This document shows positions 3,115 to 35,489 of a stretch of DNA of 64,000 nt, piece by piece. The position numbers and the translations under genes were made by a program. The first letter of the stretch is position 1, and each line of letters starts with the position of its first letter. Origin of the DNA: Xylogone sp. PMI_703 (Eukaryota > Ascomycota > Leotiomycetes); the NCBI GenBank assembly GCA_021399445.1, contig JAJTUQ010000002.1, forward strand, positions 4,402,001 to 4,466,000. Direction: 5' to 3'. The notes beneath the pieces were generated by a model that saw only the letters and a list, made by a program, of their open reading frames with translations, ran no database searches and had not been told where the DNA came from.

Positions 3115-4674
3115 ATGGTTCGAAGCTCCATTATTGCCGCGGCGCTGGTCTCGGCCTCTGTCGTTTATGGTCAGGCTACCTGTGGCCTAGATAAGAAGTG
3201 CCCAAAAGCTACTCCTTGCTGCTCCCGTAAGCTATTACCTGGAAGTTCTTGTCAAAACAATTTGCACAGATGACTGATCTTTTGCTACTGCTCAGAATAC
3301 GGACAATGTGGTGTCGGAGCTTACTGTCTCGGTGGTTGCGACCCTCGCTCCTCATTCTCCCTTGATTCGTGTGTGCCGGAGCCTGTCTGCCAGAGCAAGA
3401 CTTACAAGTTCGACTCTATGGATGGCATCACCTCCAAGACCGAGTACCTCGGAGACGCTACCAAAACCGACTGGGTTATGGATGGCCAGGCCGTCAACTA
3501 CAATGGCAATGTCCTTTTGACGATGGCACCAGACACTGTGGGAACTGTTTTGGCTAGCTCTACATACATGTGGTATGGTAATGTCTCCGCCAAGTTCAAG
3601 ACCAGCAGAGATGCTGGTGTAGTTACTGCCTTCATTCTGCTTTCTGATGTCCACGATGAAATTGATTATGAATTCGTCGGTACTGAGTTGACCACTGCTC
3701 AAACCAACTACTACTTCCAGGGTATTCCAGATTGTAAGTTATGATCCATACATATTGTCCAAAATTGGGATCGTGTATGATTGTGAAGACTGACCCTTAT
3801 CAATCCTGTAGACACGAACAGTGGTAACATCAGTCTCTCTGACACTTTCGACAACTTCCACACCTACGAGATCCAATGGACTCCAGACAGCATCACCTGG
3901 CTCGTTGATGGTCAAGTTGGACGTGTCAAGCAGAGATCCGAGACATACAATGCCACCGCCAAGCAGTGGAACTTCCCTCAAACGCCCGCACGTGTCCAAC
4001 TCTCCCTCTGGCCTGGTGGTCTATCTACCAACGCTCAGGGAACTATTGACTGGGCTGGTGGACCTATCAACTGGAACTCCCAGGATATCAAGAACAACGG
4101 CTACTACTACGCAACTTTCGCAGAGGTGACTATCTCCTGCTACAATGCTCAGTCTCCACCAGGAACCAACTCTGGCACTTCTTACACTTACAACAGCCCT
4201 CTCGGCTTGAACAACACTGTCGTTGATGGTGACAAGCCAACGGTTTTGAAGTCCCTTCTTGGCACTGGAACCAACATGTCTGCTGACTATCCCCACGCTC
4301 CATCTTCTTCATCTGGATCAAAGACAAACCCCTCTGCTTCTGCTTCTCCTTCAGCTAGTGACCTTGCTACCATCCCAGGCCTCAGTGGTGCCGGCCCAGG
4401 AACTGATGGCCACCCTGCTGATAGTGGTGACGACTCTTCCGGCAGCTCCTCCGCCTCCTCGCCTGCTCCCAGTGGTGGTGCCAGCGGCGGTGATTCGGGC
4501 AGCTCTAGTGGCTCTGGTGACGACGGTTTCAGCCAAGGCTCTGGTTCCGGTGGTTCAGGCAGTTCAGGCTCATCTCAAGGTAATAATGCAGCTAGGATTG
4601 GCAGCCAGGAAGGTGTCCTTAAGGGAAGCATCTTTGCTGGTATCATTGCAGTGGTTGCCATGATGGCTTTGTAA
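3115..4674 (+). CDS. UTR2: CRH-family GH16 transglycosylase with CBM18, GPI-anchored
   Basis: Three exons (3115-3226, 3296-3733, 3812-4674) give 470 residues. Introns begin GTAAGC and GTAAGT and end CAG/TAG in phase. Residues 1-19 form a signal peptide. Residues about 23-60 are a Cys-rich CBM18 chitin-binding module (CPKATPCCSQYGQCG). The GH16 catalytic motif DEIDYEF starts at residue 158, with E159 as expected nucleophile and E163 as acid/base. The tail is Ser/Gly-rich and ends in a hydrophobic segment (IFAGIIAVVAMMAL) typical of GPI addition. Family knowledge: Crh1/Utr2 enzymes link chitin to beta-glucan in the cell wall. The CBM18 favours Utr2 over Crh1. The call is strong; the exact paralogue name is less certain. 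Confidence 0.93.
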
Positions 4675-5459
4675 AGAATGCGTGCTTTACGATGAGGATG
4701 TGTAAAAAGGGGGCAGAGACGCGTATGGGTGAATGGATCTATTTTGGAATAATGCATCTTTTGGCATGGGAATTGGTATGCTTGGGTTTTCGCTCATTTG
4801 TTATTATGCGTCACCAGTTAGTCAAGCCTAGTACCGGAAAAGGGCAGGCCTGGTAGTATATTTAATGGCGTTTTTGGCCGTCCGCTCCCTTTGCCTTTTT
4901 GGATATTTACTTGAGAGGGAGGGATTAATTTTTTGTATAAGAAGCGATGATCAGGAGATGGGAAAATTGCAGAGGGTTAGAATCTTCCTACAATTTTCTT
5001 GTATATAGCATTAGCTTTGCTCTTGTGTTCTGTCAAATGACTTTGCTCCTTTTTCCTTTTGGTTAATCAATCCCCTTTTACGTTCCTGAGATTGATATTG
5101 TGTTGATGTATGAACTGAAGACATTGAGGATGATTAAGGATTGAGTGTTATTGAGCTTTCTCATTCGAGATGAGGATGTGATAATGAAGGACATGAGCCG
5201 TGCATTACATGTGTGCGTGGGGGTCAAAGGAAGAGTGGTTCCGGACTTGACTACTTCATCTATATATGCCTGTTTATATTTACATCTTACAATAATTTAA
5301 TGTCTTTCTTATCTATACTATGTTCTGCCGACTTACCTCTTTGGGTGAAAACGAGTCCTGTTTCAAAAAGGATGGATTTAAAAACGGCAGTGAGTGACTG
5401 AATATGGAAGTAATATTGTTTTAGATGTAGTATATTATCCATGTTGAAGGTATTATGAC
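4675..5459. other. Convergent 3' intergenic region
   Basis: AT-rich spacer between the 3' ends of the transglycosylase (+) and ALG2 (-). It should hold both 3' UTRs and terminators. No gene or repeat was seen. Confidence 0.7.
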
Positions 5460-7210
5460 TTAGCTATTCTTTCTCTCTGCCTCTCTAGCTCTCCGAGCCT
5501 GAGCCGTTTTCGTAAACCAAACCACAAGGTAAATAGACCAGCCCACTATAGATAACACCGTAGCTGTAAAAGGAGGTAATCGAGGAATGAGCCCTTTCTT
5601 CTCCGGAGCACCTGCAGTCGTCCGAAGACGTCTCATAAACCAGGAGAACACATCAGACACAATCACAAAGTTCGTGAAGAACACTAGTGCTATCTCAGGA
5701 CACTGTCGTCGGGGAGCATTTTCCATCCCTACAATCAGCTCCTCAAACCTCTCTGCCATTTTCGTCTCTGAAAACTCCGCCTTTACGCGCTTCTTCCCCG
5801 CGCTCCCCATCTTCTTCAGCTCTTTCTCAGGCAGCTTATGCAAAACATTATTCATGACGTCTGTCCAGCCGTCAACATCCTCCGTAGACCTCAACCACCC
5901 AGTCTTCCCCTCCACGACGGTCTCTAGCGGACCTCCTGTGTTTGCAGCTAAGACGGGAACACCGACTAACATGGCCTCGAGGGGCACGATGCCGAAGTGC
6001 TCATTAGACGGAGTGTAGAGCAGGAGTTTGGCTGATTTTAAGAGCTGGTCTTTGAGGGCCTTGGGCACAGAAAGAAGGAAAAGGACGTTGATGTCGTCGG
6101 GGACGTTGAGAGCTGTGACTACGGTTTTGACGGTTGCGGTTTTGAGACCGAGGGATTCGGCGAGGGCGATGAGGTCTTTGTGGTAGGAGACGTTTTCGGA
6201 GACGCGGTTGTCATAGCCTCCTGTTTTGTTTGTGTATGTTTAGTAATTGCAATTGGATATATGGTTGCTTTCTCCCTTTTGGGGATGGATTGTGTTATGT
6301 GAAATGAATGACCATGAAGACCTACCGGCTATGACTAGTCTCACTCCTTCTCTCCCATGCTTGCCTAGTCCAGCATATGCTTTAATCGCAAGCCCCACGT
6401 CCTTCTTCCGCTCAAAGCGATTGATGCTAAGTAAGATATCTTTCTCGTGCCACATCACTGACTCTGGGTCTTCGATTGGAATCGTGTTATCCTCCTTTGT
6501 ATCCACGCAGGGGTAAATAACCTCCCACTCTTTCCTCCCCGAATTCACCAACTCTGGCCATGTCTGGGCAGCAATGGACTTAGTGAACCCGGAGTTTACG
6601 GCAACAGAATCTGCAAACGACATGCTGAATTGTTCAACCCAATCAAACGGTATACGATACAGACGCTTGAGGATGTTGGTTCGGCCTCGAGCGAGGAGGA
6701 GGTCGGGGAAGTGGCAATAGAAGAGGATTCGTGCATCTGGGTACATATAACGGAGGCATGGGAGACCGGCGCTCAGTTGGTCGACGATGAAGGCATCTGG
6801 GTTTAAATTTGCGAGCTCGTAAGAGAAGTAGGTTTGGAGGATTAAGTGTAGCTGGCGAAGAATGGCGCAGAGAATAGAGAATCGGCCTAGGAGGGAGGGA
6901 GGGACGATAGTGTTACCGCGGACGCGGACATCGAGAGTTCCTAGGTGTGAGTTAGATAGATCGATATTTTAGTTTTCTGAATTTATAGCTTGCTTTAAAA
7001 AGAAATGAGAAAGGGAAAGAAGCTGTGATTACCATCTCGTGCCTCGTCGAAGCAGTGCTTGGGATCACAGTGACTTGTAAAGATAACGACCTTGTGGCCA
7101 CGGTTTTGTAACCCAACAGCTGCATCGATAATCAGTCGCTCAGCGCCACCGATCCCTAAATCCGGATGGAAAAAGATAATCGTCTTCTTTTGCTGCGTCT
7201 CTGCAGCCAT
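5460..7210 (-). CDS. ALG2: ALG2, GDP-Man:Man1GlcNAc2-PP-dolichol mannosyltransferase
   Basis: Three exons on the minus strand (7210-7033, 6940-6326, 6220-5460) join in frame to 517 residues. The N-terminus has the GT-B glycosyltransferase signature HPDLGIGGAERLIIDAA followed by SHCDPKHCFDEARDG. Further conserved blocks are FYCHFPDLLLA, LYRIPFDWVEQ and, in exon 3, the EX7E-type NEHFGIVPLEAML. Hydrophobic segments near the C-terminus fit association with the ER membrane. Family knowledge: Alg2 adds the second and third mannoses (alpha-1,3 and alpha-1,6) to the lipid-linked N-glycan precursor on the cytosolic face of the ER. The ATG at 7210 was chosen because it places the family N-terminus correctly; an in-frame ATG at 7330 would add 40 residues. 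It is transcribed away from the crotonase gene across a shared 643-bp region. Confidence 0.95.
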
Positions 7211-27744: not shown

Positions 27745-28752
27745 TCATCTCTCTATCTTTCCTACCATCCCTACATTCCCATATGAATCTACAATTCTCA
27801 CATCCGCCCCACCATCTGCATCCTCCTCATCCATCACAATCCGATATCTCTCCCCGCCATAAATGGGACTCGTAGCTCTATAGCTAATCTTTCTAGGGAA
27901 AATCATACCCTCGACTCCATCATTCTGCCCACCGCCCAAGACATCTCTCCAGAAATCGACAATGGACACTAAATTCAAGGGCCCATGGACCACAATCTCC
28001 CTATGTCCTTCCACCTTCCGACACCAATCCCTATCGTAGTGAATCCTATGCCCATTAAACGTGAGCGCCGAGAACCGGAACAACGTCACAGGAGTCTGGA
28101 CCAAATCCCTGGTATACCGACCCTCAGGCAGCGGTACCTCCTGCGCAGGCTTCGGCGGCGCAATATCAGCAGCTGATCTCCAATCCCCGTCGCCAATTAG
28201 CAGTTCAGGTCGGAAAATCCAGTTCCTGCGATCAATTAATGATACGCCGTGCTCATTCTCGAACGTCTTCTTGACGCCCACGACGACCATCTCCTCGCCT
28301 GCGCGCGTCTTCTTCCCAGCTGCAGACACCAGCTCCGTGGTCTCTGTTACTTCCTGGCCTATTCGAAGTGGATTCGTCGTCGTCCCGTCTGCTCCTCTCA
28401 CCCACTCGAGTTCTCCCCCGGCCCACATCCTGCGGGTGAAGGGCCGGGGAGGGTTGAACGAGGTGTCGGTGCCATCACGGCCGAGATCTTTTTCTAGTTG
28501 GGAGGGAGTGAAGTAGGCTAGATGCCATGTGGGTGGGAGAGGGGTATTTACAGACGGTAGGGAGGTGGATAGTTGGGTGCGGGAGAGGGTTGCAGCGAGA
28601 CGTTGGAGCTGATTCGCGTCGAGGAGTTGAGTGTGGGTGTGGGGTGGTAGGGATTGAGTTGCGGCGAGGAATTGTGCCGCTACGGCTGTTGCTGATGAGG
28701 ATTGAGATGGTGATGATGAGGTTGTGTGGAGTCGGCGGAGGAGCCGCGACAT
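27745..28752 (-). CDS. HTD2: HTD2-like mitochondrial 3-hydroxyacyl-thioester dehydratase
   Basis: Intronless, 335 residues. The N-terminus MSRLLRRLHTTSSS is a basic, Ser/Thr-rich presequence suggesting mitochondrial import. The middle carries FTRRMWAGGELEW and IDRRNWIFRP, and the C-terminal half the hydratase-2 type hot-dog motif FSALTFNGHRIHYDRDWCR followed by VHGPLNLVSIVDFW. This pattern belongs to the MaoC/FAS1-dehydratase-like proteins that include yeast Htd2, which dehydrates 3-hydroxyacyl-ACP in mitochondrial fatty acid synthesis. A mesaconyl-CoA hydratase-like annotation is also common for this family, so the substrate is uncertain. It is convergent with EME1 (167 bp). Confidence 0.85.
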   Translation of the reverse strand: MSRLLRRLHTTSSSPSQSSSATAVAAQFLAATQSLPPHTHTQLLDANQLQRLAATLSRTQLSTSLPSVNTPLPPTWHLAYFTPSQLEKDLGRDGTDTSFNPPRPFTRRMWAGGELEWVRGADGTTTNPLRIGQEVTETTELVSAAGKKTRAGEEMVVVGVKKTFENEHGVSLIDRRNWIFRPELLIGDGDWRSAADIAPPKPAQEVPLPEGRYTRDLVQTPVTLFRFSALTFNGHRIHYDRDWCRKVEGHREIVVHGPLNLVSIVDFWRDVLGGGQNDGVEGMIFPRKISYRATSPIYGGERYRIVMDEEDADGGADVRIVDSYGNVGMVGKIER

Positions 28753-29419: not shown

Positions 29420-32400
29420 TCAGCCCCCAATCTCAAGGTCGCATAACCATACCCTTCCAGAACTAGTGCCAAAAGCGACCTTTCCCCCTGATACTGCCGC
29501 ACACCGTGGTCGATACTCCGGCGGTATCAAAACCAGTTTCTCTGAATTATGTGTTATCCACATTTTATCTGAGCTTATCCCTACGATTTGATCCGAACCT
29601 ATTAAATCCAACAATGCCCTACCAGAGACGAAACAATACTCATCATAGCTATATGTGTCTCCGCCATTAACCAGCATATCATGGGGTTCGAATGTCTGTA
29701 AATGCTTGCCACTTCTCACATCCCGTATTTCTACCGTTGCACCGTCTGCATATAATAATGCAAGACGTGCTAGATTTTGTGAAAATGCTATAGCTTCAAC
29801 AGTACGGTCCTCATTGCATTTCAATGTTTGTATGCATCTACCACTCTTTGCATTCCAAATTTTTATGGTTCCATCTAATGAAGCTGATGCAACCAGTGTC
29901 GAATCATGTGAAAAATTAATCACATTGACAAAAATTGGATGTTTTTCCAGTTCTTGTAAGATTCTATTATTCATATCCCAAACTTTGATAGTATAGTCCA
30001 TTGAAGCCGATGCAAGCAGTCTAGAATCATGCGAAAAGACAACGGCGCAAACGCCACTGTTGTGGCCTTCGAATGTTTGCAAACAGTTTCCGGTAGTTAT
30101 ATCCCAAACTTTAACTGTGTGATCCCATGAGGTTGATGCAAGGAACTTGGAATCATGCGAGAAGGCTGCCGAAGTAGTATGACCGTTGTGACCTTTGAAT
30201 GTTTGCAAACAATTTCCAGTAATCGTATCCCAAATCTTAACCGTCTTGTCACCGGAGGCTGGTGCAAGCAGTTTAGAGTCATGAGAAAAAGCAACCGAGT
30301 GAACAGACCTATTATGACCTGTAAATGTTTGTTGACAATCGCCGTTAATTATATCCCAGATTTTGATTGTATGATCATCTGAACCGGATGCGAAGAATTT
30401 AGAATCATGAGTAAAAGCAAGTGAATTAACATCATCGTTATGGCCTCTAAGTGTTCTTAAGCATCTGCCAGTCTTTCCATTCCAAATTTTGATGGTCCGA
30501 TCCCTCGAACTTGACACAAGTAATTCAGAAATAGAAGACAAAATAACCGATAAAACGGCCCCATGATGGCCCTCAAGTGTCCTTAAGCACCCCCCAGTTT
30601 TGCTATCCCAAATTCTAATCGTCTGATCGTATGAGCCGGATGCAAGGAATTTTGAATCATAGGAGAAAACAACTGAATTCACAAATCCCCTATGGCCTTC
30701 AAGTGTCCTTAAGCAACTTCCAGTTTTGCTATCCCAAATCTTTATCGTCTCATCATCCGAACAAGATGCAAGCAATTCAGAGTTATGAGAGAAAATAACT
30801 GAACAAACACAGCTGCTATGACCTTCGAGTGTCTGTAAGCAAGGATTCCATTCATTTTCTATGCCCCACTGGATATTGATCGACTGGAACTTTTCTTTCT
30901 CGAAAAGAACTTTTATCAAGCTATGCCTTGGACTGAACAAGAGTGCAGATGCATATACTTGAAGGGGGTAGCTTTCTATCGCTTGCTTGTGATACATCAT
31001 GAATCGGCGTGCGTCTAGAACCAGTTTGCTCAATTGAAATGCATTTGTCGTTTTCTAAAGCATGTTATTATAATTGTTTGGAAGGGTAATTTCAGCATAT
31101 TAAAATCTACCTTAATTAAAGTCTCAAGCTTTTCCATTGAAATGATCCCTTCGGACATGCTTCTGCACAGGCTGAGAGCCTCAAGCCAGTGGATATATTT
31201 TTCTCTTATAAACATCTCGATAATACCTCCATCTTGCAGAGCAGCGTTAATGTCCCCACGAGAGCTCGAATTCCAGTCACATTCGTAGAGGTGATTAACC
31301 CAATAAATGCAAGAGTACCTTGACGTTTCTAATGGGTCAGGGTTTGGTTGTTTAACCTGCTCGATAGGATAGGACAATGTCTGTAAGTTATACATATCTC
31401 GATGTAAAGTCTTAGACATAGCCCAAAGTGACCTGGAAAAGATTGTATAATTTATTGCTGTGTTTCCAGATGGAAAGATTTTATCAGGTGCTTTCTTGGT
31501 TAAATAATCTTTCGCAGACTGATGTACCAAATATATAATGCCGTTTCGAACACTGATAAGTGAACCACAAGAATTAATGACCCCATCTAGATTTTCAAAT
31601 AGAATCTTAGGCTTGTCGATAAATAATGCCAATTCCTTTAAGGTAATAGGCCTATATACGGTTGTGACCAAGGCTAATATCTTTTTACAAAAATCTGCAT
31701 CGCGTGATTTGGACATTCTTTCTATCATCCGCTCGTAAAGAGAATCAAGTCCGGGCGGAAATGTGTTTAACTCTGCAAGAGCATGCCACTGTGTAATATC
31801 TTCGAAATGTTGACAAACCAAAGCAACCCAGAGGAAAGTGTTATTAGCATTTGAGAAGAAATGATTCAATATAGCATCTTGCGTTTTTTTGTTATACTGA
31901 TTCTGTTGTGCCAGTTTCTTAACTTTATGCCTGATATAGTTATTAACGGCGGTAGAAATAGATTCCGCGTTCAGCTCTAGGCAAAGAGTCATCTTATGCT
32001 CTGCTATTTCTAGCCGCCGTTCAATATCAAGCCAGTTACGGCTGGAGACAATCCATTTAACATGAGAAGACATGGATGACTTCTGTGTGATAAAATGCAG
32101 TAGTTTCGGCAAGTCTACTACACATTCATCAAGTGCATCAATAATCAAATAGACAGTCCTTTTTGCACTTAAATCTTGTAGAGTGTTTATCAAGAGCTCG
32201 GACAAGGCGGACCAGGCGTTGACGTCTTCGAAGAGAGCTTTACCAGCATCCTTGTACTTTTTCTGTATATGTGGGACGAGTGATGGTTGCTGATCAACAA
32301 GCATGTACAGGAGACCTCGTAACACAGCCGTAGCGCTATTAATTCGAGAATCGGTAGCCTGGCAGAAGAAATACGCCATAAGGCTCTTCCCGTCAGACTT

Positions 32401-32838
32401 GTCCAGTTCATTGATGATACCACAAATCAGCATTGTCTTTCCCTTACCGGGACCACCTTTGATCCACAGCAGGGGGCTTGGGCTCCGTTCCTCACGCCAT
32501 TCCTGGAAGTGGTCGTTGTCAAGGATCCAGCGGTACGAATCTACCAACAGGCCACCCTTCATTTCTTCGATCCGCCTCTTGTCATCTCTGGGGTCCGTAA
32601 GTCGGAGGTCAGTCAAACACTGGTCGCGATCGTGATTGATGACTTCATTAATAAACATCAGCAAAATCAATCCACTGAGACTAATATTTTAAGAGATTCA
32701 CCAACTTGGATTTCCACTGAAATTTCCTTGGATGACATGCCCACCAGCTGAAATACTACTCTGAAAGCTGTTTCCCTCTTGGACGATATTCTGCCCCCTC
32801 TCCTGCGCACTATTGCGGCTAAAGAGCCAGTTGAACAT
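29420..32838 (-). CDS. NACHT-WD40 NLR with N-terminal amyloid repeat
   Basis: Proposed exons 32838-32706, 32642-31111 and 31054-29420 join in frame to 1,099 residues. Exon 1 starts MFNWLFSRNSAQERGQ and carries one HET-s-type amyloid repeat (R0, residues 18-42). Then come the pre-NACHT motif CLTDLRLTDPRDDKRRIEE, Walker A GGPGKGKT at 107-114 and Walker B YLIIDALDEC at 209-218. After the second intron the junction IKKTTNAFQLSKLVLDARRF restores a family-standard linker. Eight to nine WD40 units follow from about residue 627. The first intron (donor GTTGGT, branch CTGAT, acceptor AAG at 32643) is the least certain part; an ATG at 32658 inside it could give a shorter form. Family knowledge: such STAND receptors oligomerise on a ligand and template amyloid folding of a partner effector. 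The effector candidate lies divergently 348 bp away. Confidence 0.88.
32713..32787 (-). other. Amyloid repeat R0 of the NLR
   Basis: Translates to VQEGNSFQSSISAGGHVIQG followed by N. It shares the pattern QxG-(S/N)-x-(F/Y)-(11 residues)-QGN with the two C-terminal repeats of the neighbouring effector. It sits within the first 42 residues of the receptor, the position R0 occupies in Podospora NWD2. It lies in a first exon of only 133 nt. Confidence 0.85.
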
Positions 32839-33186
32839 CTCTACTGCTGGAAGGCAGTGCAAGGATGACTTTAGCAGAAAGGAGGCGGGAATTGTAATTA
32901 ACTTCTACGTAGAAAATGATAAGGCTTTACCCTGCTGCCGAAATGATCCTACGTTTGAAGTCGTGAAGCTACGTGGTGGCAGTGTTTGTGAGCCTACGCC
33001 CAGCTATGTCGCTGAACGATGGGCAGTAATCGTGAGTTGGTGGATCTTTAACACTGCGTTACACTGCATAATGGGTGCTGAGAGGCTGCCACGTTTGCAG
33101 CCACTGTTGATTTTAGAATGTATTCAAGGGGGCTTTCTCGAATTTCTCTTCCCTCGTCTGAAACCGAAGATCTAAACTAGCTGAGA
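32839..33186. promoter_or_regulatory. Bidirectional promoter, NLR / amyloid effector
   Basis: The 348 bp between divergent ATGs (32838 minus, 33187 plus). Co-expression of receptor and effector is expected from this arrangement. An open frame across it (32813-33175 plus) has no family features. Confidence 0.65.
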
Positions 33187-34271
33187 ATGAGTTTCGGTAT
33201 CAGTATTGGCGACTTTGTTGCTGTCACGTCTTTGGCTTGGAACATCTACAACTCATGCAGGGATTCACCCGGTGAATTCAAGATCATTAGTGATGAGGTT
33301 GAGTCGTTACACATCATTCTTGAAAACAGTTCTAAACACATTCTACAATATGGAATAGATATAAATAAAGAGACAGAACTTAATCGCTTAATAGCTGGAT
33401 GTCATGCCGTTCTCAATGACATTCAGAAGCTTCTTGGGAGGTACAGCAAACTTGGGGCAAAGAAGCGAAATATATGGCGGAGGATAAGGTGGGCTATTGA
33501 GGATATTTCCGGAGTTAAAAATCGTCTTACTTCTACCGTTACTTTACTTACAGCATTTAACAGCAGCTTAGTAAAGTGAGTTCGCGTTTCTTCTTGATAG
33601 CTCGCTGAAATGATAGTAATTAAAGGGCTTACCATTTTTCTAGCTCTTGTCAAGCTAGAATCGAGACGAAGCTTGATCAATTGATCAACATCACTGAGCA
33701 GCCTGGTGGAATTACTCTCCCCCCAACTCTAATTGATGAGGATGCCACTTCTAAGCTTTCTCCCCAACCGGCAAACGAATCCCAGATTCCTTTGCAAACA
33801 CTTCGGATCCCCGAAGATGCGGAACAAAAACAATCCCAGTCGATGCCCATTATTGTTGAATCATCTACACCAAAATATTTGGACGGTAGCATGACTCCGC
33901 CGATCCAACGGGTTGACTCTGGGATTGACATGAGCTATGACGAAGCGTCAACCGGAGTATCAGGCGCAGAACCGACTTCGCCTTGCATGGGACTGAAGCC
34001 TCTTCTCATCAATCCTGCTCAGGTAACAGCTAATATCGTGAAGCCTGAGCAAGGGGTAAAGCAAAGAATCACTAGTCTTTCAGAATGCATAATAAACCAA
34101 GGAGGATCGATGTATAGTTCTAATATTAAAAGCAAAGATGTTACTCAGGGTAACGAGCTTCAAATTTCATCACCTAAGCCTTTCCATCAGTATATACAAG
34201 AAGGCTCTGAGTTTCGAGGAATTATTCATGCAGAAGTCTCAGTTGTACAGGGCAATAGAGTGATGATATGA
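33187..34271 (+). CDS. HeLo-like domain protein with two C-terminal amyloid repeats
   Basis: Two exons (33187-33575, 33644-34271; intron GTGAGT..TAG, 68 nt) give 338 residues. Residues 1-130, starting MSFGISIGDFVAVTSLAW, match the helical N-terminal domain seen in HeLo-like and STAND-associated fungal proteins. A Pro/Ser-rich linker follows. The C-terminus holds two 24-residue repeats, R1 at 281-304 and R2 at 315-338, separated by 10 residues; each ends in a QGN turn. This is the layout of HET-S and HELLF: a membrane-active helical domain held off until the prion-type tail is folded by an NLR template. Cell-death function is inferred from layout and from the neighbouring NLR, whose R0 matches R1/R2. 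No stop or frameshift is present, so it looks functional. Confidence 0.85.
34095..34166 (+). other. Amyloid repeat R1
   Basis: Begins NQGGSMYSSNIKSKDVTQGN. It keeps 14 residues between the first glycine block and QGN, as in R0 and R2. Confidence 0.8.
34197..34268 (+). other. Amyloid repeat R2, at the extreme C-terminus
   Basis: Begins QEGSEFRGIIHAEVSVVQGN and ends four residues later at the stop. Alternation of hydrophobic and polar residues fits a beta-solenoid rung. Confidence 0.8.
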
Positions 34272-34979: not shown

Positions 34980-35489
34980 ATACTTAAAGCGAAGGTCTCT
35001 CTAATGATATTTCCCATTTCTCAAATCTCCAAGTTCATATCAACACATTCTTTTATAATAATATGGTAAGGTCCTTCTCCTTATATTAGTTAATCCAAAC
35101 CCTTTCTAATATTATCTTCTCAGTCACAAACAAACCATCTCGACCGCCTAGCAAGAGACAGCATGAAGTAAACACCATCAAGTACAATTTTTATTACGAA
35201 AGCCTGACAATAAAAACACAGAGCCTCATCAATCCCCAAACCATCAGATATAACCTCCCAGAAAACAACAACTCGAGCCAGACTGGAAGCATTGCTTCCC
35301 AAGAGAGTCGGAGTCGTCACCCAAGAAGGCTCCAATTTCAAATCATCCGTGAAGGGCATCTCAATCAGTCAAGGAAACGAAGCGGAGATCACCTCGGTGA
35401 TATCTGAGTTCACACAGAAAGGGTCTGATTTTGAGGGACATGTCGAGGCGACGGCGTCGGTGATGCAGGGGAATCGGATTAAGTTTTAG
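34980..35489 (+). pseudogene. Decayed paralogue of the HeLo-like/amyloid effector
   Basis: The 3' end encodes two clear repeats: 35319-35390 (TQEGSNFKSSVKGISISQGN) and 35412-35486 (TQKGSDFEGHVEATASVMQG then N). Upstream, an intron-like interval 35066-35123 (GTAAGG..CAG) sits where the functional gene has its intron. It is followed by SQTNHLDRLARDSMK, resembling the effector exon 2 start, and then an in-frame stop. A linker block SLINPQTIRYNLPENN, like LLINPAQVTANIVKPEQ in the effector, lies in a different frame. At least two frameshifts therefore separate the parts, and no ATG opens the repeat frame. The first repeat is one residue short. A recent loss, or a short form made by unusual splicing, are the alternatives. 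Confidence 0.65.

Follow-up and report, generated by a model that had tools for sequence, protein, structure and literature searches.

A probable amyloid-templating receptor/effector pair, with a third repeat-bearing element, in the Leotiomycete Xylogone sp. PMI_703

The locus and its genes

The genome of Xylogone sp. PMI_703 (Leotiomycetes; 50 Mb in 25 contigs) contains, on contig C12, two divergent genes that probably form an amyloid-templating receptor/effector pair of the NWD2/HET-S kind. They lie within a stretch of 64,000 nucleotides, here called the window, to which all positions refer unless a locus is named. On the minus strand, positions 32838 to 29420 hold the receptor gene, whose modelled product of 1,099 aa is a NOD-like receptor (NLR) with NACHT and WD40 domains that both score above the Pfam cut-off. 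The effector model, of 338 aa, is a HeLo-like protein. The layout proposed in an earlier sequence-only reading, with one copy of a short repeat at the N-terminus of a NACHT-WD40 NLR (R0) and two copies at the C-terminus of the adjacent HeLo-like protein (R1 and R2), is supported, R0 belonging to the likelier of two receptor models. That reading ended at 34271 and overlooked a second pair of repeats, R1' and R2', which is found about 1 kb downstream of the effector gene. The features of the locus are outlined in table 1.

Table 1. Features of the receptor/effector locus and the third element, in window coordinates.
Feature	Position	Strand	Evidence
Receptor exon 3, WD40 repeats	29420..31054	-	Pfam PF00400, 8 stretches, above cut-off
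Receptor intron 2, 56 nt	31055..31110	-	same joint in deposited P0004
Receptor exon 2, NACHT	31111..32642	-	Pfam PF24883 (137.3 bits) and PF05729 (52.9 bits), both above cut-off
Receptor intron 1, 63 nt, donor GTTGGT, acceptor GAAG	32643..32705	-	matching donor position and phase in paralogue L017
Receptor exon 1, starts MFNWLF, holds R0	32706..32838	-	open frame from ATG; phase-1 in-frame joint to exon 2
R0, 20 residues from Q to N, amyloid-type repeat	32722..32781	-	six-frame motif scan; repeat HMM
Intergenic region, 348 bp, between the divergent start codons	32839..33186	.	coordinates
Effector exon 1, HeLo-like domain	33187..33575	+	sub-threshold PF17111, PF14479 and PF17107; predicted four-helix model; 64% identity to Amylocarpus P0002
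Effector intron 1, 68 nt, GTGAGT...CTAG	33576..33643	+	joint shared with deposited P0001
Effector exon 2: linker, R1, R2, stop	33644..34271	+	corresponding end after R2 in Amylocarpus P0002
R1, 19 residues	34098..34154	+	six-frame motif scan; repeat HMM
R2, 20 residues	34197..34256	+	six-frame motif scan; repeat HMM
Candidate third gene, 104 aa, exons 35063-35065, 35124-35167 and 35222-35489	35063..35489	+	introns of 58 and 54 nt
R1', 19 residues	35322..35378	+	six-frame motif scan; repeat HMM
R2', 20 residues	35415..35474	+	six-frame motif scan; repeat HMM

The eight WD40 units of the receptor share a mean pairwise identity of 0.55 and a maximum of 0.68, and so fall under the 85% identity by which highly conserved WD40 repeats are defined (PMC4986451). 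The NLR gene adjoins the gene for a HeLo-related protein, an adjacency found in 98 of 155 cases and therefore common without being a rule (PMC4518210).

The proposal that the effector domain differs from the classic HeLo agrees with its best Pfam match, PF17111, a family named HeLo-like in PMC9815663, although the score of 21.3 bits (E 0.00019) falls short of the cut-off, 27.2 bits; a four-helix model is predicted for this domain. A relative from Amylocarpus (P0002, 303 aa, 49% identical to the deposited effector P0001) scores 13.1 bits against PF17111 and ends plainly after R2; its tail is 61% identical to R1/R2 of the effector. The deposited effector P0001, of 440 aa, is identical to our model over 311 residues. 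A structure prediction for the tail (predicted local distance difference test of 46) was not used.

A repeat shared by receptor and effector

A six-frame motif scan of the window returns five copies of the repeat (R0, R1, R2, R1' and R2'), and the residues Q, G, Q, G and N are invariant in all seven repeats when the two of Amylocarpus are included. The repeat described in the sequence-only reading is thus real in its invariant residues, while the constant spacing of 11 residues between F/Y and QGN ascribed to it applies to R0 and R2 and becomes 10 in R1. The R1-type repeat is one residue shorter than the R2-type in each of three tails, those of the effector, of the extra pair and of Amylocarpus. 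Between the two C-terminal copies of the effector there are 14 residues, counted from the N of R1 to the Q of R2, or fewer if motif ends are counted as in PMC4518210, where a loop of 6-18 residues between the two effector motifs is a criterion for HET-s-related amyloid motif (HRAM) pairs.

Hidden Markov models (HMMs) of the repeat were run against 8,909 six-frame open reading frames totalling 416,440 residues. These came from the window and from 46 loci in its genome, which overlap in part and of which one, L016, is the window's own place. An HMM built from the two Amylocarpus repeats only ranks the five repeats of the window first (33.7, 30.6, 29.2, 24.6 and 20.9 bits), the next-best match, L016 copies aside, scoring 8.0 bits; because of this ranking across species, chance is regarded as excluded. 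An HMM of four repeats, the Amylocarpus pair together with R1 and R2, gives R0 14.9 bits and R1'/R2' 28.2 and 25.4 bits, and the best scores in 20 residue-shuffled sets, which likewise served to rule out chance repeats, range from 5.8 to 10.0 bits.

Does the receptor carry R0?

The C-terminal 1,054 residues of the deposited receptor P0004 (1,067 aa) are identical to our model. In our model R0 is present and its joint to the NACHT exon is in frame and has the support of a paralogue, but this start is at odds with P0004, which uses a donor, GTGAAT, 4 nt downstream of the donor at 32705. The paralogue, L017 (G000:C19:4678785 +, also covered by L046), is the closest NACHT relative in the genome, with 69% identity over 80 residues of the NACHT start, and it can also be aligned to the window along the R0 exon. 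L017 keeps the GT of the 32705 donor, which in both sequences lies 25 bases past the QGN start and in phase 1; the acceptor leaves the matching two bases. The GT of the P0004 donor is absent from L017, and R0-NACHT is taken as the likelier receptor product.

Two points limit the case for an R0-bearing receptor. P0004 lacks R0, as it starts at 32738, inside the R0 exon, in a different frame; and the R0 frame of L017 is interrupted, making L017 a weak witness, for the splice site rather than for a working receptor. If P0004 (start MSSKEISVEIQV) were correct as deposited, R0 would lie outside the receptor; the existence of that model speaks for this, as does its donor, which at first sight (a judgement, not a computation) is no worse than GTTGGT. 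Yet the frame that P0004 passes over holds the five invariant residues, and its donor is the one that the paralogue lacks, so that we consider the deposited form very unlikely. The earlier reading held that an exon 1 left unspliced to the NACHT exons would count against the pair: P0004, without R0, is a model of this sort, while the paralogue argues that P0004 is wrong. When the R0 region was searched against protein databases (16 candidates), P0004 alone came back, and its match covers 37% of that region. By our models, both deposited ones mask the pair, the receptor being without R0 and the effector having R2 spliced out.

An open frame of 335 codons (27745-28752, minus strand) adjoins the receptor gene.

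Relation to HRAM motifs and known systems

The published HRAM core has 17 residues, with an invariant G at position 19 and hydrophobic residues at positions 5, 8, 10, 16 and 18 (PMC4518210). In all five window repeats G stands at position 19; read by eye, position 16 is hydrophobic and position 18 is Q in all five. Each repeat has a large polar residue at either end. Other features weigh against a straightforward assignment. The core has 18-19 residues, one to two more than published, because of which positions 5, 8 and 10, by the same reading, can be matched only with gaps. Position 15 is H, D, S, S and S in R0, R1, R2, R1' and R2', rather than the K/R that is a preference and not a rule in HRAMs (PMC4518210). 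PF11558 (HET-s_218-289) fails to match R0, R1'/R2' or the second effector exon at E 1, and equally P0001, P0002, P0003 or a 69-aa stretch with R1'/R2' at E 10; this family matches just 38 of 155 published double-motif proteins (PMC4518210). A search of the whole genome with PF11558 gave no match but scored no control either, and is thus uninformative.

Membership of the HRAM superfamily is likely, though not complete, and no subclass is assigned because PF11558 is unmatched and the core is one to two residues longer than published; to take the HRAM class as settled, as the sequence-only reading did, was too strong. The Q that immediately precedes the invariant G, at position 18 in five of five window repeats, points to HRAM4, a class compared here by its published description, and whose core has 17 residues rather than 18-19. 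For HRAM5 the description places the Q at position 16 (PMC4518210). The HeLo-like protein of Podospora is placed in HRAM4 in PMC4518210 and in HRAM5 in PMC5485727 and PMC7889193.

Among known systems, NWD2/HET-S of Podospora anserina (HRAM1) pairs, as our models do, a NACHT-WD40 NLR bearing one N-terminal motif with an adjacent membrane-active protein bearing two C-terminal motifs (PMC4518210; PMC7885112). The effector described here differs in being HeLo-like rather than HeLo, the motif in its longer core and absent PF11558 match, and the WD40 repeats in being only moderately alike. FNT1/HELLF of the same species (HRAM5) shares with our models a HeLo-like effector with two C-terminal repeats and an NLR with a single R0, but FNT1 has NB-ARC and tetratricopeptide repeats (PMC7885112), and the claim that HELLF has exactly the present layout went too far. 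In the PP cluster of Chaetomium globosum (PNT1, HELLP and SBP) and the sigma cluster there are, as there may be here, three proteins that share a motif at one locus (PMC5485727; PMC7885112); their third member is a predicted lipase, whereas neither an enzyme nor a HeLo-like domain was detected beside the third element of the window.

The third element, R1'/R2'

The deposited P0001 departs from exon 2 at 34190; an intron of about 800 nt (its ends read by eye) takes it past R2, and R1'/R2' form its C-terminus, with the same two short introns as in the candidate third gene. Between 34272 and 36500 neither the HeLo-like domain nor the linker of the effector has a significant match, and no remnant of that domain was found upstream of R1'. 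When R1' and R2' are laid in register, three opposite and no like charges face each other (permutation p 0.002, with no correction for the 28 comparisons made, three of which set the two repeats of a single tail against each other). In-register opposite charges are reported for R1/R2 pairs (PMC4518210), and this pattern suits a self-stacking solenoid for R1'/R2'; the other two tails lend no support, with one opposite and no like charge in R1/R2 of the effector (p 0.34) and one of each in Amylocarpus (p 0.71).

R1'/R2' most likely shares in the same templating, whether it is a second tail or a prion-forming protein of its own. For a separate gene of 104 aa, with little beyond the prion-forming part, which might act as a prion-like trigger, amplifier or decoy, there is an ATG followed in frame by introns of 58 and 54 nt and a charge pattern like that reported for R1/R2 pairs; moreover, in Podospora the full-length effector is activated by forms that consist of the prion-forming domain (PFD) only, when these have adopted the prion state (PMC7885112). 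Its first exon would, however, be a single codon, and the charge pattern is not significant in the two other tails, which leaves this reading a serious possibility that falls short of being probable. R1'/R2' might instead end an alternative, or even the true, effector of 440 aa, in which R2 is removed from 34190 onwards to give HeLo-like + R1 + R1' + R2'. This is precisely the form of P0001, and the failure to find a HeLo-like remnant upstream of R1' is in keeping with it. The intron of about 800 nt that it needs contrasts with 54-68 nt in the other five introns read, and it drops R2, which Amylocarpus retains, ending at the matching place; we therefore regard it as rather unlikely. A decayed second effector gene, of which R1'/R2' would be the remnant, could account for the 42% identity of R1'/R2' to the Amylocarpus tail, below the 61% of R1/R2. 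Both repeats are nevertheless in frame and free of stops, with all five invariant positions kept, and nothing between 34272 and 36500 significantly resembles the HeLo-like domain or the linker, so that decay is distinctly improbable.

That the locus encodes a natural, mostly prion-forming protein which would hold, spread or block the amyloid state, as trigger or decoy, is put forward tentatively, as an idea more doubtful than not. The HET-s allele and PFD-only laboratory constructs likewise have a prion-forming part without a working killing domain (PMC7885112); HET-s is an allele with a changed HeLo domain and the constructs are engineered, while the element described here would be a separate genomic one. 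No PFD-only gene was found in the literature surveyed, and we do not claim absence from print.

Proposed mechanism and its significance

The genes, their order, their domains, the shared repeat and its order-specific form can be read from the DNA itself; the steps that follow are modelled on related families. The WD40 part of the receptor would sense a ligand, upon which NACHT oligomerisation would bring R0 copies together. The clustered R0s could then nucleate a fold resembling a ß-solenoid and convert the R1/R2 tail of the HeLo-like protein, whose helical bundle would move to the membrane and kill the cell. As a trigger, R1'/R2' would act like the PFD-only proteins of Podospora (PMC7885112); as a decoy, it would resemble the pyrin-only proteins of animal inflammasomes (PMC10803020).

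On this account the pair would be a new Leotiomycete member, invisible to PF11558, of the known prion-like signalling from immune receptors, and it illustrates how deposited gene models may mask receptor and effector alike. Most of the interest lies in the third element. If it is a separate gene, it would make a natural trigger or brake of an unusual kind.

Further copies and relatives

Protein-level searches of the genome with R0, R1/R2 and R1'/R2' at E 10 find copies in the window only. A protein-database search with the tail alone (three candidates) found only P0001; its reach is short, given that P0002 was missed. In the PDB, no sequence match at E 0.001 was obtained for the tail, for R1'/R2', for the HeLo-like domain or for two profiles (the best, at E 0.2 and 0.23, look like chance), and Foldseek gave no match either; no HET-s or HELLF chain is among the matches listed (the best 50) for one search, which excludes nothing.

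Thirty of the 32 NACHT matches in the genome were examined, one being the window's own and the other 29 each taken with 1.5 kb upstream. Only L017 among these 29 has an accepted R0-like stretch, namely its second half (13.2 bits). Loose pattern matches in L017, L020 and L034 were rejected as out of frame or unlike the motif; matches in L030/L057, L054 and L056 (5.9-9.7 bits) fall inside the shuffled range. Around L017, in L046 and L047, there is no HeLo-like match (E 0.001) and no complete repeat, L047 matching mainly NACHT/WD40. HeLo-like matches in the genome number ten at E 1, including the window's own and two that are parts of one place, and none has a repeat above the shuffled range in the stretches scanned.

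Another NLR/HeLo-like pair in divergent orientation lies at L048 (G000:C21:2100500-2110400), with the NLR at 3161-5104 on the minus strand and the HeLo-like stretch at 5561-5911 on the plus strand of that locus. Its NLR begins with a short stretch containing TQINGN and ISIFGN; the repeat model of the window gave no match at this locus. At L032 (G000:C10:142289 +) an NLR is preceded by a stretch rich in Gly, Asn and Gln (GQQYIGTNHIG, read by eye), which may be another amyloid motif family. The NLRs of L018, L019, L020 and L021 are 66-68% identical to the receptor of the window over the NACHT start, and carry an N-terminal domain that, read by eye, is a putative HET domain.

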